Shown here: positions 15,867-32,076 of the stretch, piece after piece | Layout of the letters: each line of letters starts with the position of its first letter | Position numbering within the stretch: the stretch's first letter is position 1 | Assembly: GCA_016875025.1 (NCBI GenBank) | Contig: VGSH01000026.1 | Coordinates: 1 to 32,076 of the forward strand | Reading direction: 5' to 3' | Origin: Deltaproteobacteria bacterium | GTDB lineage: Bacteria > Desulfobacterota > WTBG01 > CAIYCZ01 > CAIRTM01 | DNA length: 32,076 nucleotides | Notes under the pieces: model-generated | What the model was told of the DNA's origin: nothing | The model's database searches: none | What the model saw: the letters and a program-made list of their open reading frames with translations, nothing else | Position numbers and translations under genes: made by a program

Positions 15867-16050
15867 GGCTGTTCAAAAATGATCGGATGCAAGGCACGCG
15901 CAATCATGAAAAATTTGCACCATATCAACAATCACAAACGCGCCCGAAAGAAGCCGTAGACAAGGCGCGCAAGTACGAGTGAATGAGGCGTACGTTTGTG
16001 TACGCCGCAGTGAACGAGAACGCAGCGCAACGCAGTATACGGCCTTGTTG
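15867..16050. repeat. R element 2 (enlarged)
   Basis: It starts ggctgttcaaaaatg and contains the core gaatgaggcgtacg with its gtacgccgcagtga partner and gcgcaacgcagtat. It carries about 60 extra internal bases and its right end is degenerate. The folD ribosome-binding site follows directly. Confidence 0.65.
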
Positions 16051-16072
16051 CGGGTGCGTTAAAGGAGAGAGC

Positions 16073-16975
16073 ATGACGGCAAAGATAATCAGCGGCACCG
16101 AAATCGCAGCTCAAATCCGCGAAGAACTGAAAACCGCGGTTGAAGAGCTCAAGCAGCGCCACGGCGTTATGCCCGGTCTGGTCACGATCCTTGCGGGCGA
16201 CAATCCGGCCTCGGTCAGCTACGTGACCGCCAAACAGAAAACCGCCCACGAGCTGGGCTTTCACTCCGTGCAGGACAGCCAGCCGGGAGACATCTCGCAG
16301 GAGAAACTGCTCTGCCTGATCGAAGGCTACAACCGCGACCCTTCCATTCACGGCATTCTGGTGCAGCTGCCGCTTCCGGGCCACATCGACGAATCAGCCG
16401 TTTTGAACGCCATTGACCCTGACAAGGATGTCGACGGTTTCCATCCCGTGAACGTGGGCCGCTTGATGATCGGCGGCGACCAGGTCAAATTCCCGCCCTG
16501 CACCCCGGCCGGCATTCAGGAGCTGATCGTGCGCTCCGGCTTTGAAACCAGCGGGGCCGAGGTGGTGGTCGTAGGCCGCTCCAATATCGTGGGCAAGCCC
16601 ATTGCGAACATGCTGCTGCAAAAGGCCCGTGGGGCAAACGCCACGGTTACCGTGGTGCATACCCGCACAAAGGAGATGGAGCGCCACTGCCGCAGGGCCG
16701 ACATCCTGATCGTGGCTGCTGGCGTGCCGGGGCTGGTAAAACCGGAGTGGATAAAACCGGGAGCCTGTGTTATTGATGTTGGGGTTAACCGGGTCGGGGA
16801 AAAGATCAGCGAAAAGACCGGCAAAAAGATAGCCATCCTCAAGGGCGATGTCGATTTTGAGGCTGCCCGCGAGATCGCCGGAGCCATCACGCCCGTTCCG
16901 GGCGGCGTGGGCCCCATGACCATCACCATGCTGATGAAAAATACGGTCCGGGCGGCCCAGATCGCCTGCGGTTGA
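16073..16975 (+). CDS. folD: Bifunctional methylene-THF dehydrogenase/methenyl-THF cyclohydrolase
   Basis: This 300-residue FolD converts 10-formyl-THF through methenyl-THF to methylene-THF with NAD(P)H. The catalytic pair Y50 and K54 lies in SVSYVTAKQKTA. VQLPLPGHID and VDGFHPVNVG form the folate site, VGRSNIVGKP the dinucleotide-binding region, and PVPGGVGPMT the C-terminal signature. No separate cyclohydrolase (FchA) is visible, so FolD probably does both steps. The start at 16073 is chosen for the aaaggagaga site; the open frame runs 90 bp upstream into R element 2. Confidence 0.97.
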   Translation: MTAKIISGTEIAAQIREELKTAVEELKQRHGVMPGLVTILAGDNPASVSYVTAKQKTAHELGFHSVQDSQPGDISQEKLLCLIEGYNRDPSIHGILVQLPLPGHIDESAVLNAIDPDKDVDGFHPVNVGRLMIGGDQVKFPPCTPAGIQELIVRSGFETSGAEVVVVGRSNIVGKPIANMLLQKARGANATVTVVHTRTKEMERHCRRADILIVAAGVPGLVKPEWIKPGACVIDVGVNRVGEKISEKTGKKIAILKGDVDFEAAREIAGAITPVPGGVGPMTITMLMKNTVRAAQIACG

Positions 16976-17149: not shown

Positions 17150-17269
17150 GGCTGTTCAAAAATGTTCAGATGCAAGGCGCGCAAAACCCGAGGAATGAGG
17201 CGTACGTTTGTGTACGCCGCAGTGACGCAGGGTGCGCGCAACGCCGCAGATGGACGTTTGTCAACAGCC
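17150..17269. repeat. R element 3
   Basis: Same ends and core as R element 1 (ggctgttcaaaaatg, gaggaatgaggcgtac, cgtttgtcaacagcc). It ends 25 bp before the acsD start. Confidence 0.8.
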
Positions 17270-17294
17270 GGATAAATACATCAGGAGAAACATC

Positions 17295-18719
17295 ATGACC
17301 CTTGACATCCCCCGGCAGACCTATTTGGGCAGCGTGCGCACGAAAACCATCGGCGAGGGCAGCCGCGCCTTTACGATCGGCGGCGACACGGCTTTTCCCT
17401 TCTGCCGCTTTGAGGGCACAATGCCCAATGCGCCGCGCATCGGCATACAGGTGCTCGACTGTGCGCCGCAGGACTGGGCCCCGGCCTGTGCGGAGCCGTA
17501 TGCGGATGTGCTGGCCGACCCGGTCGCATGGGCGCTGAAAGCCCAGAACGAATACGGCGCCGACTTTATCCAGCTGTGGCTCAAAAGCACCGATCCCAAC
17601 GGGCTTAACCGCAGCGCTGAAGAGGCCGCCCGCACTGCCCGGGCCGTGGCTGACGCAATTGACGTGCCGCTTCTGGTCTGGGGCACGGCCAACGTGGAGA
17701 AAGATGCCGAGGTTCTCTCCCGTGTCGCTGAAGAATGCGCTGACGCCCACATTCTGATCGGCCCGGTTGACGAGGCCAATCACAAACAGCTGGGCGCCAA
17801 GGCCCTGGCTCACGATCTCAGCCTGGTTGCGAACAGCCCGATCGACATCAACCTTGCCAAGCAGCTCAACATTCTGCTCAACAACCTGGGCGTGCCCATT
17901 GAAAAAATAATTATTGACCCGACCACCGGCGGACTCGGCTACGGCCTTGAGTATACCTTCTCCGTCATGGAGCGCATCCGGCAGGCAGCGCTTGCCCAGG
18001 ACGATCAAAAACTGCAAAGTCCTTTTTTATGCAACCTGGCAGATGAGGTCTGGAAATGCAAGGAAGCCAAACAGCCCACGGATGAGGCCATGGGCGATGC
18101 CGCCGAGCGCGGCATTCTCATGGAAGCTGTCACCGCAGTAACGCTGCTCGGAGCCGGGGCGGGCATGCTGGTCATGCGCCACCCCGAGGCTGTGCGGCAG
18201 GTGCGCACCTATATCGCGCAGTTGGGCGGTTTTGAAATGCCCGCGGTTGTAACAAAATCTGCAGCCAGCAAAACAACAGGGGCGGCCTTGAGCGGCGAGG
18301 CCTCCACGGTGGCCGAGCGCCTGCGCGAAGGCGCGCTGTGTGAAATCGTCAAGATCATGGATATGCCCATTGAGCTGGCGCCCGGCTACGCTGTGGCCCT
18401 GATCAAGGCGCTTGACCCCGACGATGAGCGCACCGGACTGCTGCTGTCAAGCGGCGCGCCCGCAGCAGTAGAAAAGCAGCACCCGCAGAGTGCTTCTCCC
18501 GAACCCAAGCCTGCAACGCGCGCTGCCGAAGCAGCGCCGGCCTTTAAGCCCCTGTCAAGCTGGGAGCCTATTGAGTCCGGCGATCAAGGCGGGCCGGTGA
18601 AAAATGACTGGCGGGATATCGTGCGCGGCCGCGATGAGAAGCTGCAGCATGTCACAACAGACCTGCATTACTGGTACAGCGAAGGCTACGGCAGCGAGCG
18701 CCGTAAAAAGCCCGCGTAA
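17295..18719 (+). CDS. acsD: Corrinoid iron-sulfur protein small subunit (acetyl-CoA synthase delta)
   Basis: This 474-residue protein is the small subunit of the corrinoid iron-sulfur protein, which carries the methyl group from AcsE to AcsB. Residues 1-310 form the TIM-barrel core (FIQLWLKSTDPNG, LLVWGTANVEKD, LIGPVDEANHK, IIIDPTTGGLGYGLEYTFSVMERI). It is longer than clostridial AcsD, which is just over 300 residues. The extension holds a helical segment (about 335-373), a Pro/Ala-rich linker (about 387-420) and a charged tail with SSWEP, NDWRDIVRGR and LHYWYSEGYG. The start at 17295 has a caggaga site; the open frame upstream lies in R element 3. Confidence 0.95.
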   Translation: MTLDIPRQTYLGSVRTKTIGEGSRAFTIGGDTAFPFCRFEGTMPNAPRIGIQVLDCAPQDWAPACAEPYADVLADPVAWALKAQNEYGADFIQLWLKSTDPNGLNRSAEEAARTARAVADAIDVPLLVWGTANVEKDAEVLSRVAEECADAHILIGPVDEANHKQLGAKALAHDLSLVANSPIDINLAKQLNILLNNLGVPIEKIIIDPTTGGLGYGLEYTFSVMERIRQAALAQDDQKLQSPFLCNLADEVWKCKEAKQPTDEAMGDAAERGILMEAVTAVTLLGAGAGMLVMRHPEAVRQVRTYIAQLGGFEMPAVVTKSAASKTTGAALSGEASTVAERLREGALCEIVKIMDMPIELAPGYAVALIKALDPDDERTGLLLSSGAPAAVEKQHPQSASPEPKPATRAAEAAPAFKPLSSWEPIESGDQGGPVKNDWRDIVRGRDEKLQHVTTDLHYWYSEGYGSERRKKPA

Positions 18720-18769: not shown

Positions 18770-18900
18770 CATAAAAAGTTCGCAGGTACGTAGCGCAAAA
18801 TCATATTGTAGGGGCACGGCATGCCGTGCCCCTACGGTACGCCGTCCCGCCGGGCGGGAAGGATGAAGCGCAACGCAGCATCCGGACTTTTTACGTGCGC
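18770..18900. repeat. Composite repeat between acsD and cooS
   Basis: Outer ends ataaaaagttcg and cggactttttacg enclose gcgcaaaatcat, a perfect 28-bp palindrome (18808-18835), gtacgccgtcccg and gaagcgcaacgcagcatccgg. The inner 70 bp match 15768-15836 before folD. It ends 16 bp before cooS. Confidence 0.7.
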
Positions 18901-18915
18901 GTCAGGGAGACACTC

Positions 18916-20877
18916 ATGGCGAAGAAGAACGCGACCGACCTCCTGACCAGCTGCGAAGCCAGCAGGCAGATGATCGAGATTGCCGCAGAACGTGGAATTG
19001 AAACTGTTTTTGACCGCGCGGCTTCAATGCGGCCCTGCCCGATCGGTGCGGAGGGCATCTGCTGTAAAAACTGCGCCATGGGGCCCTGCCGGGTTGTATC
19101 AGCAAAGGAAGAAGGCGGGCCCGCCAAGGTAGGGCTGTGCGGTGCAACGCAGGAGACGATCGCCTCGCGCAATTTCGCCCGCATGGTCGCAGCCGGCGCT
19201 GCCGCGCACTCTGATCACGGCCGCGGCGTGGCCGAAGTGTTTCTGCTGGCCGCCCGCGGTGAAATACCCGGCTACGGCATCAAGGATGAGCAAAAGCTGC
19301 TGCAGCTGGGGCTTGACTTCGGCCTTGATGTCGCAAACCTTTCCGTGCAGGAACTGGCCGTTCAGGTCGGCGAAAAGTGCGTGGCAATGTTCGGCCAGCA
19401 GGAAGGCGAGCTGGCGTTCTTGAAACGCGCGCCGCTCAAGCGCCAGGAACTGTGGCGCAAACTCAGGCTGGCACCGCGCGGTATCGACCGCGAAGTGGTG
19501 GAGGTGATGCACCGCACGCACACCGGCGTTGACCAGGACTATAAAAACATTACCGCCCAGGCCGCCCGCTGCGCACTTTCCGACGGTTGGGGCGGCTCGC
19601 TGATCGCAACCGAACTGCAGGATGTTATGTTCGGCACGCCCGTGCCGGTCGCCGGCAGCATCAACCTTGGCGTGCTCAAGAAAGATGAGGTCAACGTTAT
19701 CGTGCACGGCCATGAGCCTCTGCTCTCCGAGATGGTGGTGGTCGCCTCGCAGGACCCGGAATTGCTCGAACTTGCGAAAAAGCAAGGCGCTCGCGGCATC
19801 AACGTGGCCGGTATGTGCTGCACGGCCAATGAAATCCTGATGCGCCACGGGTTGCCGATTGCGGGCAACTTCCTGCAGCAGGAGCTTGCCATAGCGACCG
19901 GCGCGGTCGACGCCATGGTGGTGGACGTGCAGTGCATCATGCAGGCTGTGCAAAAGGCCGCCGAGAACTTCCACACGCTGGTCATCACTACCTCACCCAA
20001 GGCCATGATGCAGGGCGCAACACATATTGAATTCGACGAGCACGACGCTATAGCGACCGCCAAAAAAATAGTGCGCACGGCAGTCGATAATTTCACACGG
20101 CGCGATCCGTCAGCCGTCAACATCCCCGATGTGCGCACGGACATGGTGGCCGGATTCTCGCATGAAACCATCAATTATCTTCTGGGCGGTACGTTCCGCT
20201 CCTCTTACCGACCGCTGAACGACAATATCATCGGCGGCCGCATCCGCGGTATCGCAGGAGTTGTTGGCTGCAACAATGCGCGCACAACCGATGACGAGCC
20301 GCATATAATCCTGATCAAGGAATTGATCAAAAACGATGTGATCGTGCTCACGACCGGCTGCGTTGCCATGGCCTGCGGCAAGGCCGGCCTGCTGACCCCG
20401 GAAGCGGCGAAGTTCTGTGGCGCAGGCCTTGCCGAGATATGCGAAACCGTGGGCATACCGCCGGTGCTGCATCTGGGCTCCTGCGTTGATAATTCACGCA
20501 TCCTGATGGCAGCAACCGCTGTTGTCAAGGAAGGCGGCCTGGGAGATGACATCAGTGAGCTTCCGGCCGCAGGCGCTGCCCCGGGCTGGATGAGCGAGAA
20601 GGCCGTGTCGATCGGGCATTATTTCGTGGCCTCGGGCGTGTACACAATCTTCGGAACAACCTTTCCGACCCTGGGTTCCTCCACCTTCACCGACTATCTG
20701 TTCAACGGACTTGAGGAGACCTGGGGCGGCATGTGGGATTTCGAGCCCGATCCGCTCAAGATGGCCGCGAAAATGATCGCCCACATTGACAAAAAACGCG
20801 CGGCCCTCGGCATTGACAAGGCGCGCGAGCGCGTGCTCATGGATATGGCCATGCGCCGCGAGCTTGAAGCGACTTGA
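18916..20877 (+). CDS. cooS: Ni-Fe carbon monoxide dehydrogenase
   Basis: This 653-residue catalytic subunit reduces CO2 to CO (or the reverse) and feeds CO to AcsB. The N-terminal cysteines match the family: C41 and C49 for the inter-subunit D cluster, and C50, C53, C58 and C75 for the B cluster. The C-cluster region includes VIVHGHEPLLSEM, GMCCTANEILMRHG, VDVQCIMQ, VVGCNNART, VLTTGCVAMACGKAG and LHLGSCVDNSRI. No obvious ligand is missing. The start at 18916 follows a cagggaga site. The gene order acsD-cooS-acsB and its length identify it as the AcsA partner of acetyl-CoA synthase rather than a stand-alone CooS. Confidence 0.97.
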   Translation: MAKKNATDLLTSCEASRQMIEIAAERGIETVFDRAASMRPCPIGAEGICCKNCAMGPCRVVSAKEEGGPAKVGLCGATQETIASRNFARMVAAGAAAHSDHGRGVAEVFLLAARGEIPGYGIKDEQKLLQLGLDFGLDVANLSVQELAVQVGEKCVAMFGQQEGELAFLKRAPLKRQELWRKLRLAPRGIDREVVEVMHRTHTGVDQDYKNITAQAARCALSDGWGGSLIATELQDVMFGTPVPVAGSINLGVLKKDEVNVIVHGHEPLLSEMVVVASQDPELLELAKKQGARGINVAGMCCTANEILMRHGLPIAGNFLQQELAIATGAVDAMVVDVQCIMQAVQKAAENFHTLVITTSPKAMMQGATHIEFDEHDAIATAKKIVRTAVDNFTRRDPSAVNIPDVRTDMVAGFSHETINYLLGGTFRSSYRPLNDNIIGGRIRGIAGVVGCNNARTTDDEPHIILIKELIKNDVIVLTTGCVAMACGKAGLLTPEAAKFCGAGLAEICETVGIPPVLHLGSCVDNSRILMAATAVVKEGGLGDDISELPAAGAAPGWMSEKAVSIGHYFVASGVYTIFGTTFPTLGSSTFTDYLFNGLEETWGGMWDFEPDPLKMAAKMIAHIDKKRAALGIDKARERVLMDMAMRRELEAT

Positions 20878-20897: not shown

Positions 20898-20976
20898 CTG
20901 TAGGGTGGACTCGCGAAGCGTGTCCACCTTTAAACGGCTGAAATCGGTGGACGTGCTGCGCAAGTCCACCCTACAG
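20898..20976. repeat. Inverted repeat of gtagggtggac type, copy 1
   Basis: Arms ctgtagggtggactcgcgaa / ...ctgcgcaagtccaccctacag. A diverged copy is at 24924-24996 and a single arm at 27036-27064. It fills most of the cooS-acsB junction. Confidence 0.8.
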
Positions 20977-21001: not shown

Positions 21002-23209
21002 TTGTCTAAAATAATCTGCACTGCTGCAATCAACGGCGCGCACGCGATCGCGCGCCGGGTTGAAACAACCTATGCACGGGTTCTAAAAAATTACGGACCG
21101 GACCAGGAAATCGGCTTCCCGGATACGGCCTACTTTCTGCCGATCATTTACGCCATGCTGGGCATCGCGGTCAAAAACCTCGGCGACTGCCAGCTGGTGT
21201 TTGAGCGCGCGCGTCGGCTGCTGCCCCGGCCGGTCCGTGACAACATGCCCCTGCCCTACCTTGCCCCGGCTTTGGATGCAGGCATGGCCACGCTGTTCTA
21301 CGAAGAAATCGACGAGGCGATGCGCTACCTTGAGAAACCCGACTTCTATCTGCGCGGAGAAGACGTGGGCGATGACAATATCTGGCTCGGCGCGGCAAGC
21401 GATGTGATTCTGCGCAAGCGCGGCGTCGAATTCGTTGACGGCAGCGCGCCGGGATTTGCGGCCATCGTTGGCGCTGCGCCCGACAGCGAAACCGCCCGCA
21501 AAATCGCCGAAGAGCTGCAGACAAAAAACCTGTACGTATTCATGGCCTCGCAGGACAACGGCCGCTGCTTTGCCCGCCAGCTTGTTGAAGCCGGCGTGCA
21601 GATCGGCTGGGGTACGCGCCTGGTGCCGTTCAGCCCGGACATTTCAGGGGCCGTGTTCGCGCTCGGGTTTGCCTGCCGTGCAGCCATGGCCTTCGGCGGT
21701 ATCAAGCCGGGAGATTTCCGTAAAAACCTGATCTACAACAAGGACCGTATTTTCGCCTTTGTGCTGGCCATGGGCACGGTGACCGACGAGTGGTATGCCA
21801 ATGCGGCCGGCTGCATCAATTTCGGCTTCCCGGTTATTGCCGATACGCCCATCCCGGCTGTGCTGCCGACCGGCATCTGCACCTATGAGCACGTTGTTCC
21901 TAATGTGCCCCACGACCAGATGGTGGCCCGCGCGGTTGAGATCCGCGGCCTGAAGGTAACCGTCACCGAAGTGCCGATTCCAGTTGCCTACGGCCCCGCT
22001 TTCGAGGGCGAGCGCGTGCGCGGCGACGACATCTATTTCGAATGCGGCGGCGGCCGCACCCAGATGGTCGAATTTTCGGTGCTGCGCCAGATGGACGAGG
22101 TCGAAGACGGCCGCATCGAGGTTGTGGGCCCCGACATTCCCGATATCGAACCCGGCACAAAGCTTCCGCTTGCGATATACGTCGAGATCGCCGGCCGAAA
22201 AATGCAGGAGGATTTCCTGCCCATACTCGAGCGCCAGATCCATCACCTGATCAACTACGCGCAGGGCATCATGCACATCGGCCAGCGCGATATCTCCTGG
22301 ATCAGGCTTGCGCGCCAGGCCGTGGACAAGGGCTTCACATTTAAAGACATCGGCCGCATCCTGCACGCCATGTATCATAAGGACTTCGGCAAAATACTGG
22401 ACAAGGTGCAGGTTACGATTTTCACCGAGGAAGAGCGCGTGCAGAAGGTGCTCAAAGAAGCACGGGAAGCCTACAGCCTGCGCGACGCGCGCATCGCCAA
22501 CCTGACCGACGAGGTTGAGGGAGTTTATTATTCCTGCACCCTGTGCCAGTCATTCGCGCCGTCGCACGTGTGCGTGATAACCCCGGAGCGCACCGGCCTG
22601 TGCGGAGCCTATAACTGGCTGGACTGCAAGGCCGCCTTTGAGATCAACCCGACAGGGCCCAACCAGCCGATCGAAAAGGGCGTTGAAAATGACGGCCGCA
22701 CGGGCAACTGGCGCGGCGTGAACGAGTTCGTGGCCCAGGCCTCGCGCGGCAAGGTGCAAAACGTCAACGCCTACAGCATCATGCAGGACCCCATGACCTC
22801 CTGCGGCTGCTTTGAATGCATCGCGGCCTACCTTGACCAGTTCAACGGCGTTATGACCGTTGACCGCGATTTCAAGGGCGACAACACGCCCTGCGGCATG
22901 AAGTTCACCACCCTGGCCGGCTCGGTCGGCGGCGGCGCGGTGACACCCGGGTTCGTGGGCCACAGCAAGCACTATATCTGCTCGGGTAAATTCCTGAAAG
23001 CCGAAGGCGGCATCGCGCGCCTGGTCTGGATGCCCTCGCAGCTGAAAGAAGAACTGCGGGATAAAATAAATGCGCGCGGCGAGGCTCTCGGCGTGAGCAA
23101 CCTGGCAGACCGCATCGCGGATGAAACCGTCGGTATGTCGCAGGAGGAGATCCTGCCGTTTTTGAAAGAGAAGAAACATCCGGCGCTGGAAATGGAATCA
23201 ATGATTTGA
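21002..23209 (+). CDS. acsB: Acetyl-CoA synthase catalytic subunit
   Basis: This 735-residue AcsB condenses the methyl group, CO and CoA at the nickel A-cluster. The six A-cluster cysteines are C512, C515, C524, C534, C601 and C603 (CTLCQSFAPSHVC, TGLCG, SCGCFEC). Their spacing is the same as in the Moorella enzyme, shifted by six residues. The gene starts with TTG at 21002, supported by an agaggaga site about 8 nt upstream and by the family-like start MSKIICTAAINGA. The next in-frame ATG would remove about 48 residues. CooS precedes it, separated by a repeat. Confidence 0.97.
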   Translation: MSKIICTAAINGAHAIARRVETTYARVLKNYGPDQEIGFPDTAYFLPIIYAMLGIAVKNLGDCQLVFERARRLLPRPVRDNMPLPYLAPALDAGMATLFYEEIDEAMRYLEKPDFYLRGEDVGDDNIWLGAASDVILRKRGVEFVDGSAPGFAAIVGAAPDSETARKIAEELQTKNLYVFMASQDNGRCFARQLVEAGVQIGWGTRLVPFSPDISGAVFALGFACRAAMAFGGIKPGDFRKNLIYNKDRIFAFVLAMGTVTDEWYANAAGCINFGFPVIADTPIPAVLPTGICTYEHVVPNVPHDQMVARAVEIRGLKVTVTEVPIPVAYGPAFEGERVRGDDIYFECGGGRTQMVEFSVLRQMDEVEDGRIEVVGPDIPDIEPGTKLPLAIYVEIAGRKMQEDFLPILERQIHHLINYAQGIMHIGQRDISWIRLARQAVDKGFTFKDIGRILHAMYHKDFGKILDKVQVTIFTEEERVQKVLKEAREAYSLRDARIANLTDEVEGVYYSCTLCQSFAPSHVCVITPERTGLCGAYNWLDCKAAFEINPTGPNQPIEKGVENDGRTGNWRGVNEFVAQASRGKVQNVNAYSIMQDPMTSCGCFECIAAYLDQFNGVMTVDRDFKGDNTPCGMKFTTLAGSVGGGAVTPGFVGHSKHYICSGKFLKAEGGIARLVWMPSQLKEELRDKINARGEALGVSNLADRIADETVGMSQEEILPFLKEKKHPALEMESMI

Positions 23210-23548: not shown

Positions 23549-24895
23549 ATGCCATTGTCCGGAATAGATATTTTCAAGAAGCTCCCCAAGACGAACTGCC
23601 AGGAATGCGGCGTACCGACCTGCATGGCGTTTGCCATGAAACTGGCCGCAGGCCAGGCCGAATTGGCCGCATGCCCGTATATCGCCGATGACGTGCGCGC
23701 CCAGCTCGAGGAGGCCTCGGCCCCGCCGATTCGCTGCGTTACCATCGGGACGGGCGACAACGCTTTGAAAGTGGGCGGCGAGACCGTCATGTTCCGCCAT
23801 GAAAAAACCTTCGTGAACCCGCCCGGCCTCGGCGTGCTGGTGAGCGATACCATGCCGGCCGAAGAAATCGACTCACGCCTGCAGCGCCTGCTTTCACTCT
23901 CCTGGGAGCGCGTCGGGATGCATCTCAAGGCCGACATCGCCGCGCTGAAAGCCGCAAGCGGCAGCGGCGCAGCATTTGCAGCGCTGGTTGCGCGCGCCCG
24001 CACAGCCGGCGTGACGAACATGGTGCTGATGAGCCAGGACCCCGCCGTGATGGCTGAGGGCTTAAAGGCAGCATCGGGCCTGCGGCCGCTCATCTACGCG
24101 GCCACCGCTGACAATCTGCAGGCCATGGCTGACCTTGCCCTTGAGCACAGCTGCCCCCTGGCAGTGCGCGGCAAGGGCCTTGACGAAGTCGCTCAGCTGA
24201 CTGCGCAGCTCAAGGACATGAAAATCAGCGATATCGTGATCGACACCGGCACACGCGACCTGCACCAGGCGTTTGAAGACCAGATGAACATCCGCCGCGC
24301 AGCCCTGAAAGGCAATGTCCGCGCGCTCGGGTTTCCAACGATCGTATTTCCGTGCGAGATGACCGATGATCCCATGCAGGAAACCCTGTTCGCCGCGACC
24401 TTTATCCCCAAGTACGCCGGCATCATCATCATGAGCGACCTGCACGGCGCCAACCTGTTCCCGCTGGCTGTGCAGCGCATGAACATCTACACCGACCCGC
24501 AGCGGCCCATGGCAACCACCGAGGGCATTTACGAGATCAACAACCCGGACGAAAATTCTCCCGTGCTGATCACGAGCAACTTCTCGCTCACGTATTTTGT
24601 TGTTTCCGGCGAGATCGAATCCAGCCGCATGCCGGCCTGGCTGCTGATCAAAGATACCGAAGGACTCTCCGTGCTGACCGCCTGGGCAGCCGGGAAATTC
24701 GTGGCCGACTCGATCGCGGCATTTGTCAAGAAATCGGGCATAACCGACAAGGTCGCACACCGCACGTTGGTGATCCCGGGACTGACCGCAACCATCAGCG
24801 GCGACCTGGAAGAAGAACTGCCGGACTGGACTATCCAGATCGGGCCGCGCGAAGCCGCGCACCTGACGCCGTTTTTGAAAAACTGGAAAGCCTGA
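23549..24895 (+). CDS. acsC: Corrinoid iron-sulfur protein large subunit (acetyl-CoA synthase gamma)
   Basis: This 448-residue large subunit carries the low-potential [4Fe-4S] cluster that reduces the cobalt. Its ligands are C17, C20, C25 and C42 (KTNCQECGVPTC ... AACPYI). A TIM barrel fills the middle, and the C-terminal domain (about 320-448) binds the corrinoid (YFVVSGEIESSR, LLIKDTEGLSVLTAWAAGKF, LVIPGLTATISGDLEEEL). Length and motifs are normal. The start is preceded by a caggagg site. It pairs with AcsD, though two genes lie between them. Confidence 0.96.
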   Translation: MPLSGIDIFKKLPKTNCQECGVPTCMAFAMKLAAGQAELAACPYIADDVRAQLEEASAPPIRCVTIGTGDNALKVGGETVMFRHEKTFVNPPGLGVLVSDTMPAEEIDSRLQRLLSLSWERVGMHLKADIAALKAASGSGAAFAALVARARTAGVTNMVLMSQDPAVMAEGLKAASGLRPLIYAATADNLQAMADLALEHSCPLAVRGKGLDEVAQLTAQLKDMKISDIVIDTGTRDLHQAFEDQMNIRRAALKGNVRALGFPTIVFPCEMTDDPMQETLFAATFIPKYAGIIIMSDLHGANLFPLAVQRMNIYTDPQRPMATTEGIYEINNPDENSPVLITSNFSLTYFVVSGEIESSRMPAWLLIKDTEGLSVLTAWAAGKFVADSIAAFVKKSGITDKVAHRTLVIPGLTATISGDLEEELPDWTIQIGPREAAHLTPFLKNWKA

Positions 24896-25106: not shown

Positions 25107-25179
25107 ATAATACGGCAGCGGCATTAAAACGGTATCTTTCGTGCATACCAGCTCAGGCTGTTCAAAAGGAGGATATAAG

Positions 25180-26067
25180 ATGATCATCACCATCGCCGAA
25201 AGCATCAACATCATGTCCAAAACAATCGGTCCTGCCATGAAGGAGCGCAACCCCGGCCCCATTCAGGAAATGGCCCGGGCCGAGGCTGCCGCAGGCGCTG
25301 ACTTCCTTGATGTCAATATCGGGCCCGCGCGCAAGGACGGCGCTGAGCTGATGCGCTGGCTGGTTGAGACCATTCACGCGGTGGTTGATCTGCCCCTGTC
25401 GCTTGACACGACCAACCTCGAGGCCATGGAAGCCGGGCTGCAGGCGCATAAAAAAGGCGGGCGCCCGCTGGTCAACTCCGTGTCCTGCCAGGCCGACCGC
25501 ATGGATGCAGGCATCAGCCTGGTAAAAAAATACAATGCCCTGATGGTAGGCCTGCTGTGGGGCAGTGACGGCATGCCGCGTGACGTAAACGAGCGGGCCG
25601 CCCTTGCGGTCGACCTGATCTACCGGGCCAATGAAGCGGGCATTCCCAACGAAGACATTTTTGTCGATCCCATCGCCACGCCGATCATGGGCGAGATCAA
25701 CCAGCTCCTGGCCTGCACGGAATTTATGCAGATGCTGGCCGAGATCGCCCCGGGCTGTAAATCGATCGTCGGCCTCTCAAACGTCTCCAACGGGGCTCCG
25801 GCCGAGTTGCGCCCCTTTCTCAACCGCGCCTATCTTTTGATGCTGCACAGAAACGGCCTGTACTCGGCCATACTGGATGCATACGACAGCGAGATCATGG
25901 CCCTGTGCCGTGGAGCTCACCCGGAGCTGTCTGACCTTGTGGGGCGCATCATGGACGGCGCTGCGGTTGACATCGCCGCGCTTTCCCCGGCCGAGCGCAA
26001 TTATGCCCGCAGCGTCAACGTGCTCACCGGCAAGGTGCTGTATTCCAACTCCTGGCTCGAGGGGTGA
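25180..26067 (+). CDS. acsE: Methyl-THF:corrinoid iron-sulfur protein methyltransferase
   Basis: This 295-residue pterin-binding TIM-barrel enzyme moves the methyl group from methyl-THF to the cobalt of AcsCD. Typical segments are MIITIAESINIMS at the start, ADFLDVNIGPARKDG, SLDTTNLEAMEAG, LVNSVSCQADRM and IFVDPIATPIMGEI, all lining the folate pocket. It is slightly longer than the roughly 262-residue Moorella enzyme, with a C-terminal addition. The start at 25180 has an aaggagga site. A GTG at 25141 is in frame but lacks one. A leftover R-element end (caggctgttcaaaa) lies just upstream. Confidence 0.95.
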   Translation: MIITIAESINIMSKTIGPAMKERNPGPIQEMARAEAAAGADFLDVNIGPARKDGAELMRWLVETIHAVVDLPLSLDTTNLEAMEAGLQAHKKGGRPLVNSVSCQADRMDAGISLVKKYNALMVGLLWGSDGMPRDVNERAALAVDLIYRANEAGIPNEDIFVDPIATPIMGEINQLLACTEFMQMLAEIAPGCKSIVGLSNVSNGAPAELRPFLNRAYLLMLHRNGLYSAILDAYDSEIMALCRGAHPELSDLVGRIMDGAAVDIAALSPAERNYARSVNVLTGKVLYSNSWLEG

Positions 26068-26141: not shown

Positions 26142-26281
26142 CCGGCGCAGAGACTGTGTCGCAATTCATTTTTTCTGTCATTTCGACCGAAGGGAGAAAT
26201 CTTTAGTTCAAGAAAATCAACTGCTTAAGATTCCTCACATTCGTTCGGAATGACATATTTGGCTATTGCGACACAGTCTCT
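26142..26281. mobile_element. MITE-like element, copy 2
   Basis: It matches 9487-9626 with about two substitutions over 140 bp. The left terminal repeat is complete, while the right one keeps 17 bp (attgcgacacagtctct) before diverging. It lies between acsE and the cytochrome b gene and may separate their transcription. Confidence 0.82.
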
Positions 26282-26349
26282 TCAACGGTGTGACGGCGTG
26301 GTATATGTGTGTCAACCTTGAACGTTGAACCTTGAACAATTCTCACATC

Positions 26350-27039
26350 ATGTACGATTCCATGCTTGACAGCATCTATTCGTTCGCGCGGGGGCCGATG
26401 CTGTGGGCGGCTGTGCTGATACTGTGCGCTGGCACTGTCTACCGCATTTATGAGCTCTACCTCCTGACCTCACGCAAAAAAAAACGACTGCTGCCTGCAT
26501 CTGCGGCAAAGGTTTCCCTTTCACCGGAAGAGCAAACCCTTGACCGTCTGGCGCGCTTTCAGCAAAGCGCCTTTGCCGTGCATCCGGTCATGTTCATCGT
26601 ATCGATACTGTTTCACATTTGTTTATTCGCAGCACCGTTGCTCGCGCTGGGCCACAGCCTCGAAATATACCGCTCCTGGGGCATTACCCCGCCAAGCCTG
26701 CCTGAGCCCCTGATTGATGGTATGACTGTCATTGTGCTGCTGTGCGGTATTTTTTTTCTCATGCGCCGCCTGGTGCTGCCGCGCGTGCAGGCGATATCAA
26801 CGCTGGCTGATTATGTCCTGCTCGCATGTGTCATGGCACCGTTCCTGACCGGATTTTTTGCCTATCATCACATATTTGATTACAAGACCGTCATAACGCT
26901 TCACCTGCTTGCCGGCAATATTCTGCTGATCGTACTGCCCTTCAGCAAGATCGGTCACATGGTATATTTCTTTTTCGTCAGGCTGTTTATCGGCTCGGAG
27001 TTCGGCCCGGCCCGCGGCAGCCGGGAGTGGAAACCGTAG
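26350..27039 (+). CDS. NarI/HmcE-like membrane cytochrome b subunit
   Basis: This 229-residue integral membrane protein has five or six hydrophobic segments (about 17-37, 79-100, 122-138, 152-172, 181-197 and possibly 200-213). Histidines lie inside or at their ends (H78, H89, H102, H173/H174, H185, H203), as expected for a NarI/DsrM/HmcE-type dihaem cytochrome b that exchanges electrons with quinone. Its size fits HmcE. The start is uncertain: ATG 26350 is used, TTG 26332 and ATG 26362 are alternatives, and none has a good ribosome-binding site. Its stop codon TAG is part of a repeat arm. The HdrC-like gene follows. Confidence 0.8.
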   Translation: MYDSMLDSIYSFARGPMLWAAVLILCAGTVYRIYELYLLTSRKKKRLLPASAAKVSLSPEEQTLDRLARFQQSAFAVHPVMFIVSILFHICLFAAPLLALGHSLEIYRSWGITPPSLPEPLIDGMTVIVLLCGIFFLMRRLVLPRVQAISTLADYVLLACVMAPFLTGFFAYHHIFDYKTVITLHLLAGNILLIVLPFSKIGHMVYFFFVRLFIGSEFGPARGSREWKP

Positions 27040-27064
27040 GGTGGACCCGCGAAGCGCGTCCACC
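27036..27064. repeat. Single arm of the gtagggtggac repeat
   Basis: The hairpin-forming half-unit gtagggtggacccgcgaagc followed by gcgtccacc. Its second to fourth bases form the stop codon of the cytochrome b gene. Confidence 0.7.
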
Positions 27065-27091
27065 ATTACCAATACAGCCACGGATCATCAT

Positions 27092-27481
27092 ATGAACACA
27101 GCCGTCATACAGGACATGCTGCAGCAGCACAAAAAACGCATGAAGCTGAACCTGGCCGCGTGCGCCGGCTGCAGCCTGTGCGCGGAGAGCTGCTTTCTGT
27201 TCGAGCTGCACGATCATGATCCGCGCTATATGCCGTCCTTCAAGGTGCTCAATTCCCTCGGAAAGCTGTACCGCACGCACGGCCGCAGTACACAGGAGCA
27301 GCTGCAGGGCATGGCAGAAATTGTGTGGCGCACCTGCGTGCTGTGCGGACGCTGCTACTGTCCGTTCGGCATCGATATTCCGAACATGATCGCGCTTGCG
27401 CGCGACATCCTGCGCGCGCAGGGTATTGCAGGCGTGTACCCGCATTCGATCGGCGAGCCCGATGATGCGCAGGGGGAATGA
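27092..27481 (+). CDS. Short HdrC-like iron-sulfur protein
   Basis: This 129-residue protein corresponds to HdrC or to the N-terminal part of HmcF/TmcB/QmoC-type proteins. The first [4Fe-4S] site is C24, C27, C30, C34 (CAGCSLCAESC). The second is C82, C85, C88 and C90 (CVLCGRCYCPFGID), where the usual three residues before the last cysteine are reduced to one. The CCG domains that normally follow in HmcF-like proteins are absent. The start at 27092 is preferred because upstream codons lie in a repeat; the ribosome-binding site is weak. Its stop overlaps the RAYT start. It would pass electrons between the membrane cytochrome b and a soluble enzyme. Confidence 0.78.
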   Translation: MNTAVIQDMLQQHKKRMKLNLAACAGCSLCAESCFLFELHDHDPRYMPSFKVLNSLGKLYRTHGRSTQEQLQGMAEIVWRTCVLCGRCYCPFGIDIPNMIALARDILRAQGIAGVYPHSIGEPDDAQGE

Positions 27482-28059
27482 ATATGTATGAGCAGGCGGA
27501 AGCACCACATCGCCGCCGATCCATCCGGCTGAAGGGGTATGATTATTCCGAAGCGGGAACATATTTTGTGACCATATGTACACAGAACCGCGAGTGTTTG
27601 TTCGGAAATATTATAGACGGAACAATCCGTTTAAACGAAGCAGGCGAAATGATTCAAACAGTGTGGAACGAAATCCCAAGCCATTATGACGGTATTGATG
27701 TTGATGAATTCGTTATTATGCCCAATCATGTTCACGGTATCATTGTCATTGTAGGGGCAGGCCCCTGTGCCTGCCCTGATTCAGAACCACAGAAAAACGG
27801 GCACCCACAGGGGGTTGCCCCTACAAGGCTGTCTTTGCCTGACGTGGCACATCGATTCAAAACGCTGACCACGAAACGATACGTCGATGGTGTGAAAAAA
27901 CACCGATGGCGTCCTTTCGCCAAGGCACTATGGCAGCGCAATTACTGGGAACACATTATTCGCAGCGAAGACGATTTAAACCGCACACGCGAATACATAC
28001 ACAATAATCCCAGAAAATGGGAATTAGATGAACTCTATGCGGAAACGCAAACTGCTTGA
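27478..28059 (+). CDS. REP-associated tyrosine transposase (RAYT, Y1/HUH type)
   Basis: This 193-residue single-domain HUH protein of the IS200-like TnpA_REP family has histidines H84 and H86 in MPNHVHGI and the catalytic Y173 in TREYIHNNPRKW. RAYTs nick and join single-stranded REP hairpins. Codons of about residues 91-117 coincide with a 78-bp palindromic repeat (27749-27826) that is read in frame as low-similarity protein sequence. The gene sits between the HdrC-like gene (4-bp overlap) and metV (12-nt gap) in the same direction. ATG 27484 has better spacing to the aggggg site than ATG 27478. The protein looks intact. Confidence 0.9.
   Translation: MNMYEQAEAPHRRRSIRLKGYDYSEAGTYFVTICTQNRECLFGNIIDGTIRLNEAGEMIQTVWNEIPSHYDGIDVDEFVIMPNHVHGIIVIVGAGPCACPDSEPQKNGHPQGVAPTRLSLPDVAHRFKTLTTKRYVDGVKKHRWRPFAKALWQRNYWEHIIRSEDDLNRTREYIHNNPRKWELDELYAETQTA
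27749..27826. repeat. REP-like palindrome inside the RAYT reading frame
   Basis: Arms 27749-27776 and 27799-27826 (outer ends ttgtaggggc/gcccctacaa) pair at about 24 of 28 positions. The total length of 78 bp is a multiple of three and keeps the frame. The ends match the 28-bp palindromes at 9672, 15786 and 18808. Confidence 0.82.
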
Positions 28060-28071
28060 CAGGTCATCTTT

Positions 28072-28758
28072 ATGATCAAAGCCACCATCAAACCCCTTGA
28101 GGAAATCAGGGCCCTGGTCGCCCCTTTTCGGCGCGTGCTGACCGTGGGCTGCGGCGGCTGCGTTTCTCTTTGCCTTGCCGGCGGCATGAAGGAGGCGCGC
28201 GAGCTGAACATTAAGCTGCGCGCGCTGCAGGACCCCGGTTCCGAAGCGGTATTCGATGATATCACCGTTGAGCGTCAGTGCGAGCAGCAGTTCCTTGCAG
28301 CGCTTGACAGCCGGGTTGAAAAATATGATGCCCTGATTTCTCTGGCCTGCGGCGCGGGCGTGCAGTTCCTGGCTGAGCGATTTCCGCATAAGCCTGTTTT
28401 CCCCGGCGTAAACACGCAGTTCGTCGGAGTGACGCTCGATATCGGCTGGTATGAAGAGCGCTGCAAAACCTGCGGCGACTGCGTGCTCGGCCTGACCGCC
28501 GGCATATGCCCGGTAACCATGTGTTCCAAAAGCCTTTTCAACGGGCCCTGCGGCGGCCCGCAGGACGGCCACTGCGAAGTCGACCCAAACACTCCCTGCG
28601 CCTGGATTGCCATTTATGAGCGCCTGCAGCAGCAGGGCCGCCTTGACAGCATAGCGGACGTAATGCCCGCGCGCCAGTGGCAGGGCCAAACACCGGGGCG
28701 TATCCTTCACCCCCGCTATCGCGACCGCTATGTGCATGAGGATGGAAACGATACATGA
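28072..28758 (+). CDS. metV: Methylene-THF reductase iron-sulfur/zinc subunit
   Basis: This 228-residue MetV partners MetF in the methylene-THF reductase of acetogens and related anaerobes. The N-terminal cysteines C27, C30 and C34 (VGCGGCVSLC) and the C-terminal cluster region CKTCGDCVLGLTAGICPVTMC, with NGPCGG and a further C at HCEVDPNTPC, bind metal clusters. Its role is to bring electrons to the MetF flavin. It overlaps metF by 4 bp and follows the RAYT closely. Which partner delivers electrons is open; the neighbours suggest an Hmc-type membrane complex rather than HdrA/MvhD. Confidence 0.93.
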   Translation: MIKATIKPLEEIRALVAPFRRVLTVGCGGCVSLCLAGGMKEARELNIKLRALQDPGSEAVFDDITVERQCEQQFLAALDSRVEKYDALISLACGAGVQFLAERFPHKPVFPGVNTQFVGVTLDIGWYEERCKTCGDCVLGLTAGICPVTMCSKSLFNGPCGGPQDGHCEVDPNTPCAWIAIYERLQQQGRLDSIADVMPARQWQGQTPGRILHPRYRDRYVHEDGNDT

Positions 28759-29693
28759 AATCCGGAAGCCGGCTTGAAAGGATCCTAAAGGCAGGCCAGT
28801 TCGCCCTGACCGGCGAGCTGGGCCCGCCGCGCGGTGCTGATGCGGACGCAGTGCGCGGAAAAGCCCGACACCTTTCGGGCATGGTCGACGCCGTCAACAT
28901 TACCGACAACCAGACAGCGGTTGTGCGCATGTCGAGCCTTGGAGCCTGCCTGATTGCCATGCAGGCGGGGCTTGAGCCTGTGTACCAGATGGTGTGCCGC
29001 GACCGCAACCGCATCGCCATGCAGTCCGATATACTCGGGGCCGCTGCTCTTGGCGTGCGCAATATCCTGTGCCTGTCAGGCGATCATCAGTGCTTCGGGG
29101 ACCACCCCGACTGCAAGAAAGTCTTCGATCTTGACTCCATGCAGCTCATCAATATGGTAAAGACCATGCGCGATGAGGCCCGCTTCCAGGGCGGTGCGGA
29201 AATAACGGTTGCTCCGAAAATGTTTATCGGCGCAGCAGCCAATCCGTTTGCAGAGCCGCACGCGTTCCGGGTCACGCGCCTTGCTAAAAAAATCGCTGCC
29301 GGCGCGGACTTTATCCAGACCCAGTGCGTGTACAACATGGAGCGCTTTTGCGCCTGGCTGGCTCAGGCACGCGACATGGGCCTGACGGAAAAGGTCTACA
29401 TCCTTGCAGGCGTAACGCCGCTCAAATCGCTCGGCATGGCGCGCTACATGCAAAAAAACGTGCCCGGCATGGATGTGCCCGATGATCTGATCAACCGTCT
29501 GCAGGGCGTTGATAAAAAAGATCAGGCAAAAGAGGGAATCGCGATCTGCTGCGAGCAGATCCAGCAGTTGCGCGAGATGAAAGGCCTTGCAGGCATTCAC
29601 CTCATGGCGATCGAATGGGAGCACCGTGTGCCGGAAATCGTCGAAAAAGCCGGCCTGCTGCCGCGCCCTGAGCTGCAAGCGGAGCAGGTATGA
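28755..29693 (+). CDS. metF: Methylene-THF reductase flavoprotein
   Basis: This 312-residue FAD TIM-barrel enzyme interconverts methylene-THF and methyl-THF, the last methyl-branch step before AcsE. ALTGELGPPRG contains the conserved acid E21. NITDNQTAVVRMSSLGA, NILCLSGDH, FIQTQCVYN and YILAGVTPLKS are typical of MetF. It lacks an NADH-binding partner domain and depends on MetV. It overlaps metV at its start (ATGA, 28755-28758) and hmcA at its end (ATGA, 29690-29693), so a cytoplasmic folate enzyme and an exported cytochrome are translationally coupled. Confidence 0.95.
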   Translation: MKSGSRLERILKAGQFALTGELGPPRGADADAVRGKARHLSGMVDAVNITDNQTAVVRMSSLGACLIAMQAGLEPVYQMVCRDRNRIAMQSDILGAAALGVRNILCLSGDHQCFGDHPDCKKVFDLDSMQLINMVKTMRDEARFQGGAEITVAPKMFIGAAANPFAEPHAFRVTRLAKKIAAGADFIQTQCVYNMERFCAWLAQARDMGLTEKVYILAGVTPLKSLGMARYMQKNVPGMDVPDDLINRLQGVDKKDQAKEGIAICCEQIQQLREMKGLAGIHLMAIEWEHRVPEIVEKAGLLPRPELQAEQV

Positions 29694-31354
29694 AAAAAAT
29701 ACTGGCGACCATTGTCGTTTTTGCAGGAGCATGCGCTTTTCTGCTTGCTGCCGTACCCGGCCCTGCAGCACCTGACACGCCGGGCGCATGCAGCGCAGAT
29801 AATGAAACCGCTGCCGGGTATATCCTGCTCCGTGAAGATGTCCTCACCCGGCCCGCGGTCATTTTTAATCATGAAAAGCATGTGTGTGCACTCGGAGAGC
29901 GCGCCTGCGCCGACTGCCATGCAAAAAAAGCCGACGGCAGCCTTGTGTTTAAATTCCCCAAGAATCACCCGGACACAGATGATCCTGACTCGTTGATGCA
30001 GGCCTGGCATGACGGCTGTATCGGCTGCCACAGCGAACGAGCGCAACGCAAGGAGCCAAGCGGCCCGCGTACCTGCGGGCAGTGCCATGTCAAAGATCGA
30101 AAGAGCATGGCGTTCCGGCACATGCCTGTGCTGCCCTCCTATTACGAACCCTTGCGCGACACCTATCATGGCGACTGCATTGCCTGCCACAGCGAGCCGC
30201 TGCGAAAAGCCGAACATGCGCCCGTGCTTGACTGGAAAAAATTCCATATTCTGCGCAGCACACTGCCTGAGCCGGAGCAGCCGCCATCGGGCTTTGATTA
30301 TCAACGCCATTACAAGCACACACGCACGCTTGAAAAAGACTGCGGCCTGTGCCACTACCTGTCCCCCGAAAAACGCCAGGCCATCGAGAAAGAGGGCAAA
30401 GAACCCGAATGCCGCGACTGGCTGCTGGAGCCCGACCCGGAAGGAAGCTGGCGCGAGCAGGACTACGCCCATGCCCGCTGCGTGAACTGCCACTTCGCGC
30501 GCGTCACGGCCGGTGAAGAAAAAGCCGGACCCCTTATGTGCAGCGGCTGCCATACGCCTGAAGTGCGCACACCCGAACAGATGCAGGATGTTGCCCGACC
30601 TGAGTGCGAGCAGAAAGAAACAATCCTGATTACGTCCGGGGATGCTGCTGTCATGGATGCGGTGCCCTTTGACCATGCCGCACATCAGCTGCGCACAACC
30701 TCCTGTCAGGACTGCCATCACAACGGCTTGCAGGCCTGCCGCGAATGCCACACTCCGACCGGTGATGAAAAGGGCGAGCATATTACGCTGGCACAAGCCT
30801 ATCACCGCGAGCATGCAGGCCGCAGCTGCGTGGGCTGCCATAACCGGCAGAAACAAAAAGGCGAATGCGCCGGGTGCCACCATCAGTTGCCCGCAACGCT
30901 CGAATCAAAAAGCGCCTGCACGGCCTGCCACAGCGGCAGCCTTGAAGCTCTGCAGCGCAAACGCGCACCCGCCGCGCCGGAGTCCCTGCTGCCGCACGAT
31001 ACGAAGGATTCCTGGCACATTGAAAAACTGGGCACAGACTATGAAAAGGTGGACTTCAAACACCTGGCAATGGCGAAGGCGCTCGCTGCTGTCAGCGAGA
31101 AGTCATCACTGGCGCGCTATTTTCATGTCGATGAGATGGCCGTGTGCGCAAGCTGTCACCATTACAGCCCGCTTGAAAAGGGTAAACCCGTTCCGGCCTG
31201 TCGCACCTGCCATGACGCTCAGCCGACCGCAGCAGCATCACGGCCGGATCTCATGGGCGCCTATCACCAGCAGTGTCTCGGGTGCCATCAGAAGATGGGC
31301 GGCACTGAAGAGAAAATGCCTCATACGTGTGAGGGCTGCCACGCAGCCCGGTGA
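29690..31354 (+). CDS. hmcA: 16-haem cytochrome c, HmcA-like
   Basis: This 554-residue exported cytochrome has 16 CxxCH haem sites (CADCH, CIGCH, CGQCH, CIACH, CGLCH, CVNCH, CSGCH, CQDCH, CRECH, CVGCH, CAGCH, CTACH, CASCH, CRTCH, CLGCH, CEGCH) and a signal peptide over the first 25 or so residues. The haem number and length match HmcA, the high-molecular-weight cytochrome of the Hmc transmembrane complex of sulfate reducers. HmcA takes or gives electrons in the periplasm, usually with cytochrome c3 and hydrogenase. The gene overlaps metF by 4 bp and is followed by hmcB after 4 nt. Confidence 0.92.
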   Translation: MKKILATIVVFAGACAFLLAAVPGPAAPDTPGACSADNETAAGYILLREDVLTRPAVIFNHEKHVCALGERACADCHAKKADGSLVFKFPKNHPDTDDPDSLMQAWHDGCIGCHSERAQRKEPSGPRTCGQCHVKDRKSMAFRHMPVLPSYYEPLRDTYHGDCIACHSEPLRKAEHAPVLDWKKFHILRSTLPEPEQPPSGFDYQRHYKHTRTLEKDCGLCHYLSPEKRQAIEKEGKEPECRDWLLEPDPEGSWREQDYAHARCVNCHFARVTAGEEKAGPLMCSGCHTPEVRTPEQMQDVARPECEQKETILITSGDAAVMDAVPFDHAAHQLRTTSCQDCHHNGLQACRECHTPTGDEKGEHITLAQAYHREHAGRSCVGCHNRQKQKGECAGCHHQLPATLESKSACTACHSGSLEALQRKRAPAAPESLLPHDTKDSWHIEKLGTDYEKVDFKHLAMAKALAAVSEKSSLARYFHVDEMAVCASCHHYSPLEKGKPVPACRTCHDAQPTAAASRPDLMGAYHQQCLGCHQKMGGTEEKMPHTCEGCHAAR

Positions 31355-31358
31355 GTCT

Positions 31359-32076
31359 ATGAACCGACGCGGATTTATTGAGCGCATCACCTGTTTGACC
31401 GGCGCTGCCCTGCTCGGCCAGCCATGGCAGGCACGTGCGCGCAGGCTGAATCACGCTGCCCGCCAAAGCCTCGGCGTGCTGGTTGATACAACCCTGTGCG
31501 TGGGTTGCCGGGCCTGCGAGCTGGCCTGCAATGAAATCAATGTCGATTTGCCGATCAGGCCGGAAGGTTATTTCAAGGACACGTCGGTTTTTGAACGCAG
31601 ACGCCGCATGGACGCTTCCGCGTTCACCGTGGTCAACCGCTACCAGCCTGAACCCTCCGGTGCGCCCGTGTACGTTAAATTTCAATGCATGCACTGCCTG
31701 AACGCGGCGTGTGTTTCAGCCTGCCTGGTAAGCGCTCTGACCCGGGATGCGACCGGCGCGGTCGTATACGACGGAAACAAGTGCATCGGCTGCCGCTACT
31801 GCATGGCCGCCTGCCCTTTCCAGGTACCGGCGTATGAATATACTTCGGTGCTCACGCCGCGCGTGCGCAAATGCACATTCTGCTTTAATACGCGCCTGTC
31901 AAACGGCGAAATTCCTGCCTGCATTGAGGCCTGCCCCATGAGGGTTATGCGCTTCGGCCTGCGCGACGACCTGATAACGCTTGGCCGCGAGCGTATCCGC
32001 AAAAACCCCGGACGGTATGTGCAGCATATCTACGGCGAGCAGGAAGCCGGGGGCACAGCCTGGATGTACCTGACGC
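31359..32076 (+). CDS. hmcB: HmcB-like periplasmic ferredoxin subunit (cut by window end)
   Basis: The first 239 residues are present; the gene runs past the end of the window. A twin-arginine-type signal (MNRRGFIERITCLTGAALLG) suggests export. Four cysteine groups follow: CVGCRACELAC, CMHCLNAACVSAC, CIGCRYCMAACP, and CTFCF with CIEACP. They fit four [4Fe-4S] clusters of the HmcB/DsrO/NrfC type. It would link HmcA to a membrane NrfD-type subunit, expected just downstream but not visible here. It lies 4 nt after hmcA, in the same operon. Confidence 0.88.
   Translation, partial: MNRRGFIERITCLTGAALLGQPWQARARRLNHAARQSLGVLVDTTLCVGCRACELACNEINVDLPIRPEGYFKDTSVFERRRRMDASAFTVVNRYQPEPSGAPVYVKFQCMHCLNAACVSACLVSALTRDATGAVVYDGNKCIGCRYCMAACPFQVPAYEYTSVLTPRVRKCTFCFNTRLSNGEIPACIEACPMRVMRFGLRDDLITLGRERIRKNPGRYVQHIYGEQEAGGTAWMYLT

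Follow-up and report, generated by a model that had tools for sequence, protein, structure and literature searches.

A candidate membrane-linked methylene-tetrahydrofolate reductase encoded with a Tmc/Hmc-type cytochrome relay in Deltaproteobacteria

Four classes of methylene-tetrahydrofolate (methylene-THF) reductase (MTHFR) have been described, namely MetF, MetVF (type II), MetVF-RnfC2 (type III) and MetVF-HdrCBA-MvhD (type IV) (PMC9430772, PMC8760232). The standard redox potential (E0') is approximately -200 mV for methylene-THF/methyl-THF, -414 mV for H2 and approximately -432 mV for formate, and for acetogens and syntrophic acetate oxidizers it has long been asked how this step is coupled to energy conservation (PMC9430772, PMC6895022). 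The enzymes of Sporomusa ovata and Thermacetogenium phaeum are thought to reach the membrane via Hdr subunits (PMC9430772, PMC6895022), and MetF(V) has been linked to HdrABC in work on anaerobic methanotrophic archaea (ANME) and Seep-SRB bacteria (PMC10553843 for Seep-SRB1g). Here we describe a metVF cluster with adjoining cytochrome genes in a 32,076-nt stretch of a deltaproteobacterial genome (contig VGSH01000026.1, assembly GCA_016875025.1; hereafter the window). The window is one entire contig (C26) of a 3.25-Mb genome that consists of 254 contigs and is rated 100% complete.

The cluster occupies positions 26350-32076, directly after the genes for carbon monoxide dehydrogenase/acetyl-CoA synthase (CODH/ACS), and all of its genes lie on the plus strand. 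The gene set, the single direction, the ATGA overlaps of metV/metF at 28755 and metF/hmcA at 29690, and the 4-nt gap between hmcA and hmcB were reported in an initial annotation and proved exact. As in MetVF-type enzymes, a MetF with the MTHFR fold and a DUF5981 protein (MetV) are encoded together, by overlapping genes. No rnfC2 gene as in type III is found among the neighbours, and of the type IV partners hdrA, hdrB, hdrC and mvhD only an hdrC-like gene is linked. Comparison of the encoded proteins suggests, with a probability of roughly three in four, that this locus encodes a membrane-linked MTHFR, in which the CCG end of a Tmc/Hmc-type relay is replaced by MetVF. An Hmc-type complex, rather than HdrA/MvhD, had been proposed initially as the electron partner of MetVF. 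That proposal is supported by linkage in about a dozen families, dedicated clades and the single MetV and MetF of the genome, and needs one amendment: the conserved core combines a cytochrome b resembling TmcC/HmcE with a CCG-less HdrC-like protein, and HmcABC is one of two c-cytochrome partners. We refer to this core and its metVF genes as the module.

The best-scoring model for the cytochrome b is TmcC, followed by HmcE, with both scores below the equivalog cut-offs. Four haem-ligand histidines are invariant in 31 of 31 module and 24 of 24 canonical proteins, and the protein is expected from its sequence to carry two b haems. The HdrC-like protein resembles HmcF/TmcB in their N-terminal part alone, again with scores below the equivalog cut-offs. 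It has no CCG domain; HmcF of a true Hmc combines an HdrC-type domain with CCG domains, and TmcB of a true Tmc likewise has CCG domains. The eight cluster cysteines are invariant among the module HdrC-like proteins. Their second cluster motif is CX2CX2CXC (31/31), which occurs in none of 30 canonical proteins, all of which have CX2CX2CX3CP instead. All 31 module loci encode a short HdrC-like protein, and the canonical counterparts have 440-510 residues in most loci. The HmcA-like protein has exactly 16 CXXCH motifs and a hydrophobic N-terminus compatible with export, and the HmcB-like protein has a twin-arginine start (MNRRGF). MetF aligns to solved MTHFRs, including the conserved GD segment and the N-terminal Glu. 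By sequence, no solved relatives of MetV or the HdrC-like protein were found, and a fold search with the AlphaFold model of MetV (predicted local distance difference test score, pLDDT, 81) gave no match at E below 0.001.

To assess conservation across the phylum, 395 genomes were searched with the HdrC-like alignment alone as query. The matches fell into two separated groups, with short proteins in 32 genomes of 12 families (≥174 bits) and long TmcB/HmcF-like proteins in 17 genomes (≤153 bits). In 31 of the 32 genomes, metV and/or metF adjoin the short HdrC-like gene. Twenty of these HdrC-found loci were read afresh, 10 of them on contigs that look identical to MetV-found ones, and 19 have metV and/or metF together with cytochrome b beside the HdrC-like gene. 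The remaining 12 loci all have metV adjoining, with cytochrome b located elsewhere only in G001, a sister species of the window organism. The initial annotation had named a lack of conservation of the adjacency in relatives as a ground for abandoning its proposal, and this is clearly contradicted. The neighbourhood scan relied on hidden Markov models built from sequences of this analysis; taking MetV as the query favours module-bearing loci among those found with it, and many genomes are fragmented metagenome-assembled genomes (MAGs).

Two types of module loci can be distinguished. The window type has the order acsE-cytb-HdrC-metV-metF-hmcA-hmcB, with 16 or 17 CXXCH motifs in HmcA and with hmcC where the contig is long enough. 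It is shared by relatives of the same family or order (L056-L058, L060, L061, L090), some of which do not reach acsE or hmcB, and by L059, which is cut before hmcA. A rearranged version, metF-cytb-HdrC-metV-hmcA, is present in L134, L161 and L099 (cut). The window HmcB shares 57-75% identity with close relatives and 46-50% with L134 and L161. The second type comprises 20 MetV-found loci and is typically ordered metF-cytb-HdrC-tetrahaem cytochrome-metV, which places the cytochrome genes between metF and metV; L110 differs in ending metV-metF. The TmcA-like tetrahaem cytochrome of this type is not encoded in the window locus. Carriers of the second type are Syntrophaceae and other deltaproteobacterial MAGs, Ca. 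Tharpella and a Spirochaetes-labelled MAG. Other Desulfobacterales MetVF loci retrieved by the same search have a 940-950-residue Fe-S protein instead, which is probably HdrA.

In phylogenetic trees, the 31 module HdrC domains lie on one side of a branch that separates them from canonical TmcB/HmcF (support 100/99), and the 31 module cytochromes b are separated from canonical TmcC/HmcE in the same way (support 100/100). Canonical loci of the phylum are ordered cytochrome b, TmcB/HmcF with CCG domains, and c cytochrome; therefore, MetVF occupies the place of CCG in the module. Because of the separate clades, the CX2CX2CXC motif and the invariant cofactor ligands, we regard the module, on sequence grounds, as an old and dedicated subfamily that has no CCG half. 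On the MetV tree, the 16-haem partner appears at two separate places, which suggests that it joined the module twice. Tree-distance correlations of MetV, HdrC, cytochrome b and MetF range from 0.79 to 0.90; they carry little weight, since co-evolution is not separable from vertical descent.

The age of the HdrC-like clade and its spread over many families also bear on an extremely improbable alternative, according to which the locus is a true Hmc for sulfate respiration (toward DsrC/heterodisulfide), metVF were inserted by chance, and the HdrC-like protein is an HmcF truncated by the REP-associated tyrosine transposase (RAYT; REP, repetitive extragenic palindromic) gene. The RAYT gene does directly follow the short HdrC-like gene, and HmcA reaches 367 bits with the HmcA model. 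However, the protein is equally short in relatives that have no RAYT, where metV comes immediately after it, and truncation by RAYT was rejected on this ground. No DsrA was found in the window genome, in which a CCG/DsrC role would thus have no use, nor any further TmcC/HmcE-like cytochrome b; a sulfate-respiration Hmc is already contradicted for this genome. DsrA does occur in some other module carriers (G095, G162 and G163), which shows that the module is not confined to a single respiratory type.

RAYT was seen between the HdrC-like gene and metV only in this genus and is absent there in other relatives; it is not part of the module. The RAYT of the window (27478-28059) and that of another genus member (L055:4600-5142, minus strand) are 48.7% identical, with MetV 93% identical, indicating a separate insertion or fast divergence. 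REP-like palindromes occur at 20903, 20964, 24946, 24986 and 27039, in gaps of the acs/met cluster near the RAYT gene. They have a GTAG head and the form GGTGGAC..CGCGAAGCG..GTCCACC, with some in opposed pairs, and may be the REP family that belongs to this RAYT. The palindrome at 27039 lies at the cytochrome b/HdrC junction, where the G001 cluster is split.

The window genome was searched family by family for other redox genes. MetV is single-copy, and so is MetF at E 1e-20. A HdrCB-HdrA-MvhD set with Flox-like NAD(P)H/FAD partners is located on contig C34 and a Hdr-2-oxoacid oxidoreductase-like set on C46, both identified partly by size and motif only. Thus, the initial observation that HdrA, HdrB and MvhD are missing holds for the window, and the set lies elsewhere. 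Of the combination that had been named as speaking against the proposal, a complete hdrABC-mvhD set plus another metF elsewhere, the Hdr/MvhD set exists and the second metF does not. The C34 set could serve MetVF in trans, which leads to an unlikely alternative: MetVF is an ordinary soluble reductase, either type II with ferredoxin or type IV via HdrABC-MvhD of C34, and the Hmc-like relay is separate and merely shares the locus. In other bacteria, MetVF alone accepts reduced ferredoxin in vitro (PMC9430772, PMC8760232), and the cytochrome b gene of G001 lies apart from metVF. Against a soluble enzyme, the Hdr set on C34 comes with donor genes of its own, and the cytochrome b and HdrC-like clades are found with metVF in 31 of the 32 genomes. 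Moreover, the relay lacks the CCG half on which canonical relays depend, so that no other cytoplasmic end is left, and in second-type loci metF and metV flank the cytochrome genes.

Besides the ferredoxin activity and the C34 set, several observations weigh against a membrane-linked reductase. Three module loci have MetV but no adjoining MetF. G015 keeps acsE-cytb-HdrC (L264:5023-6183), and no MetV or MetF was found in this 91%-complete genome; either the MAG does not include MetVF or the organism relies on a different reductase. In G001, acsE-cytb and HdrC-metVF-hmcAB are on different contigs, split between cytochrome b and HdrC at REP-like repeats. One transcript is therefore not obligatory, and the whole set is not co-transcribed in every carrier. 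Finally, the AlphaFold model of the HdrC-like protein is poor (pLDDT 58) and was not used.

A further alternative, which we consider improbable, combines the module with HdrABC, so that MetVF would feed both the membrane relay and an Hdr/Flox flavin complex as a confurcating or bifurcating branch. Type IV enzymes do pair MetVF with HdrCBA (PMC9430772, PMC8760232). The tetrahaem-type locus L074 (12978-19901), and likewise L117 and L125, have a second MetF-like gene (~35% identical) after metV, with Hdr-like Fe-S genes further downstream. However, these Hdr-like genes may belong to the second MetF, and the window type has no linked HdrA or HdrB. In these tetrahaem-type clusters, two reductases with different coupling may lie next to each other.

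The operon very probably continues from the window onto contig C23, because the last 379 bases of the window overlap the first 379 of C23 (L168:1-379) with 96.8% identity. The 12 mismatches in this overlap are probably strain variation at the contig break. C23 carries the remainder of hmcB (L168:1-561), approximately 2.2 kb with a VapC-like gene, an NrfD-type hmcC and then a major facilitator superfamily (MFS) transporter. The C-terminal part of HmcB matches NF045715 and HmcC matches NF045714, both below the equivalog cut-offs. Of hmcC and hmcD, which had been expected beyond position 32076, the former was found and hmcD was not seen. The VapC-type toxin gene (L168:2215-2604) lies in the stretch between hmcB and hmcC, which is absent in relatives.

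Hydrogen and formate had been suggested as periplasmic partners. Hydrogen is unlikely, as no [NiFe] hydrogenase large subunit was found in the window genome ([FeFe] enzymes were not searched for). A periplasmic formate dehydrogenase with a twin-arginine translocation (TAT) start is present on C166. Its catalytic subunit gene (L169:1205-4270, minus strand) is interrupted by a TGA codon, probably for selenocysteine, and is followed by genes of HmcB-like Fe-S and NrfD-like subunits. Futalosine-pathway menaquinone genes are also present.

The genes of the window from position 11272 on are listed in Table 1. Those upstream of the cluster form a Wood-Ljungdahl block that starts at 11272. A short element resembling a miniature inverted-repeat transposable element (MITE; ~26158-26285) is located between acsE and the cytochrome b gene and has the terminal inverted repeat GAGACTGTGTCGCAA ... 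TTGCGACACAGTCTC.

Table 1. Positions, strands and supporting matches of the Wood-Ljungdahl and redox genes in the window.
Gene product	Position	Strand	Match or remark
Fhs, formate--THF ligase, Wood-Ljungdahl methyl branch	11272..13035	+	PF01268, E 1.4e-208
RACo-type corrinoid activator	13038..14984	+	RACo domains, PF14574, E 1e-101
CooC-like maturation ATPase	14981..15748	+	CbiA/AAA_31 domains; name inferred from context
FolD, methylene-THF dehydrogenase/cyclohydrolase	15983..16975	+	PF02882/PF00763
AcsD-like CODH/ACS subunit	17232..18719	+	PF03599
CooS, CO dehydrogenase catalytic subunit	18826..20877	+	TIGR01702, E 5e-184
AcsB, acetyl-CoA synthase	21002..23209	+	NF040764, 1054 bits
AcsC, corrinoid Fe-S protein large subunit	23549..24895	+	NF003195, E 1.5e-183
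AcsE, methyl-THF:corrinoid protein methyltransferase; start codon uncertain	25141..26067	+	NF005719, E 8e-65
Membrane cytochrome b, TmcC/HmcE-like	26350..27039	+	NF045723 (TmcC), 198 bits; NF045716 (HmcE), 147 bits
HdrC-like two-[4Fe-4S] protein without CCG domain	27092..27481	+	NF045711, residues 39-152 of 457
RAYT, REP-associated tyrosine transposase	27478..28059	+	NF047646, 67.5 bits (curated cut-off 80); PF01797 above cut-off
MetV	28072..28758	+	PF12225, E 6.7e-36
MetF, flavin methylene-THF reductase subunit	28755..29693	+	PF02219, E 6e-42
HmcA-like cytochrome c, 16 CXXCH	29690..31354	+	NF045713, 367 bits (curated cut-off 400)
HmcB-like periplasmic Fe-S protein, cut by contig end	31359..32076	+	Ferredoxin domains

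We infer the physical complex, the electron path, its possible directions and the energy coupling of the putative membrane-linked reductase from its genes as follows. In the cytoplasm, MetF (flavin) and MetV (Fe-S) would catalyse the interconversion of methylene-THF and methyl-THF. The small HdrC-like two-cluster protein would dock MetV to the diheme membrane cytochrome b, taking the cytoplasmic end of the relay from the CCG (heterodisulfide/DsrC-type) domains and giving it to MetVF. On the periplasmic side, cytochrome b would pass electrons to, or take them from, a multihaem cytochrome; in this organism that is the 16-haem HmcA, accompanied by HmcB and the NrfD-type HmcC. In the reductive direction, electrons from periplasmic formate, reduced c cytochromes or menaquinol would move inward to methylene-THF, with energy conserved. 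In the oxidative direction, during acetate or methyl oxidation, electrons of about -200 mV would leave the cytoplasm for the periplasm or for an acceptor outside the cell. Oxidation would need a proton gradient where the acceptor is more negative, for example toward formate, and would not need one for higher-potential acceptors.

If this mechanism is true, the MetVF step could store or spend energy at the membrane, and electrons from methyl-THF (~-200 mV) would have a route to the periplasm or to partners outside the cell that needs neither NADH nor ferredoxin. On balance, the gene linkage favours a fifth class of MTHFR, in which MetVF would be fixed to a dedicated relay of cytochrome b, HdrC-like protein and multihaem c cytochrome; the methylene-THF/methyl-THF conversion would itself be a respiratory step coupled to proton motive force and reversible between CO2 fixation and acetate oxidation. 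The range of this class would span at least a dozen families of Deltaproteobacteria, with occasional members outside them (the spirochaete-labelled MAG and Ca. Tharpella). Tmc/Hmc-type complexes would then be re-taskable by swapping their cytoplasmic end. The CX2CX2CXC HdrC beside metV provides a sequence signature for recognising the class in metagenomes, and the cluster names specific subunits to purify, delete and assay. No prior description of a link between MetVF and Tmc/Hmc was found in the open-access literature, which is not proof of novelty.

Among known systems, type IV MetVF-HdrCBA-MvhD of Moorella thermoacetica and S. ovata shares with the window locus the MetVF core, an adjoining HdrC-type Fe-S protein and a proposed membrane or quinone link (PMC9430772, PMC8760232). 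Here, in contrast, HdrA, HdrB and MvhD are unlinked, and the partner is a cluster-encoded cytochrome b with a multihaem c-type cytochrome. In T. phaeum, methyl-THF electrons are likewise proposed to travel via the membrane to a periplasmic formate dehydrogenase, but the proposed link is HdrABC/MvrD to menaquinone, with no dedicated cytochrome b/c relay (PMC6895022). Seep-SRB1g, also a member of Desulfobacterota, has Wood-Ljungdahl genes linked to electron-transfer genes (PMC10553843), although the partner of its MetF is a bifurcation-type Hdr rather than a cytochrome relay. The Hmc of Desulfovibrio (HmcA-F) is similar in its 16-haem HmcA, HmcB, NrfD-type HmcC, HmcE-like cytochrome b and HmcF-like N-terminal Fe-S domain. 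It differs in that here HmcF is without its CCG half, MetVF stands in that place, HmcD was not seen and the genome has no DsrA. Tmc (TmcABCD) has the cytochrome b that is the best match (TmcC) and the HdrC-type domain, and its TmcA-like tetrahaem cytochrome recurs in the sister loci, whereas the module has no TmcB CCG domains, carries CX2CX2CXC in place of CX2CX2CX3C and is linked to metVF.

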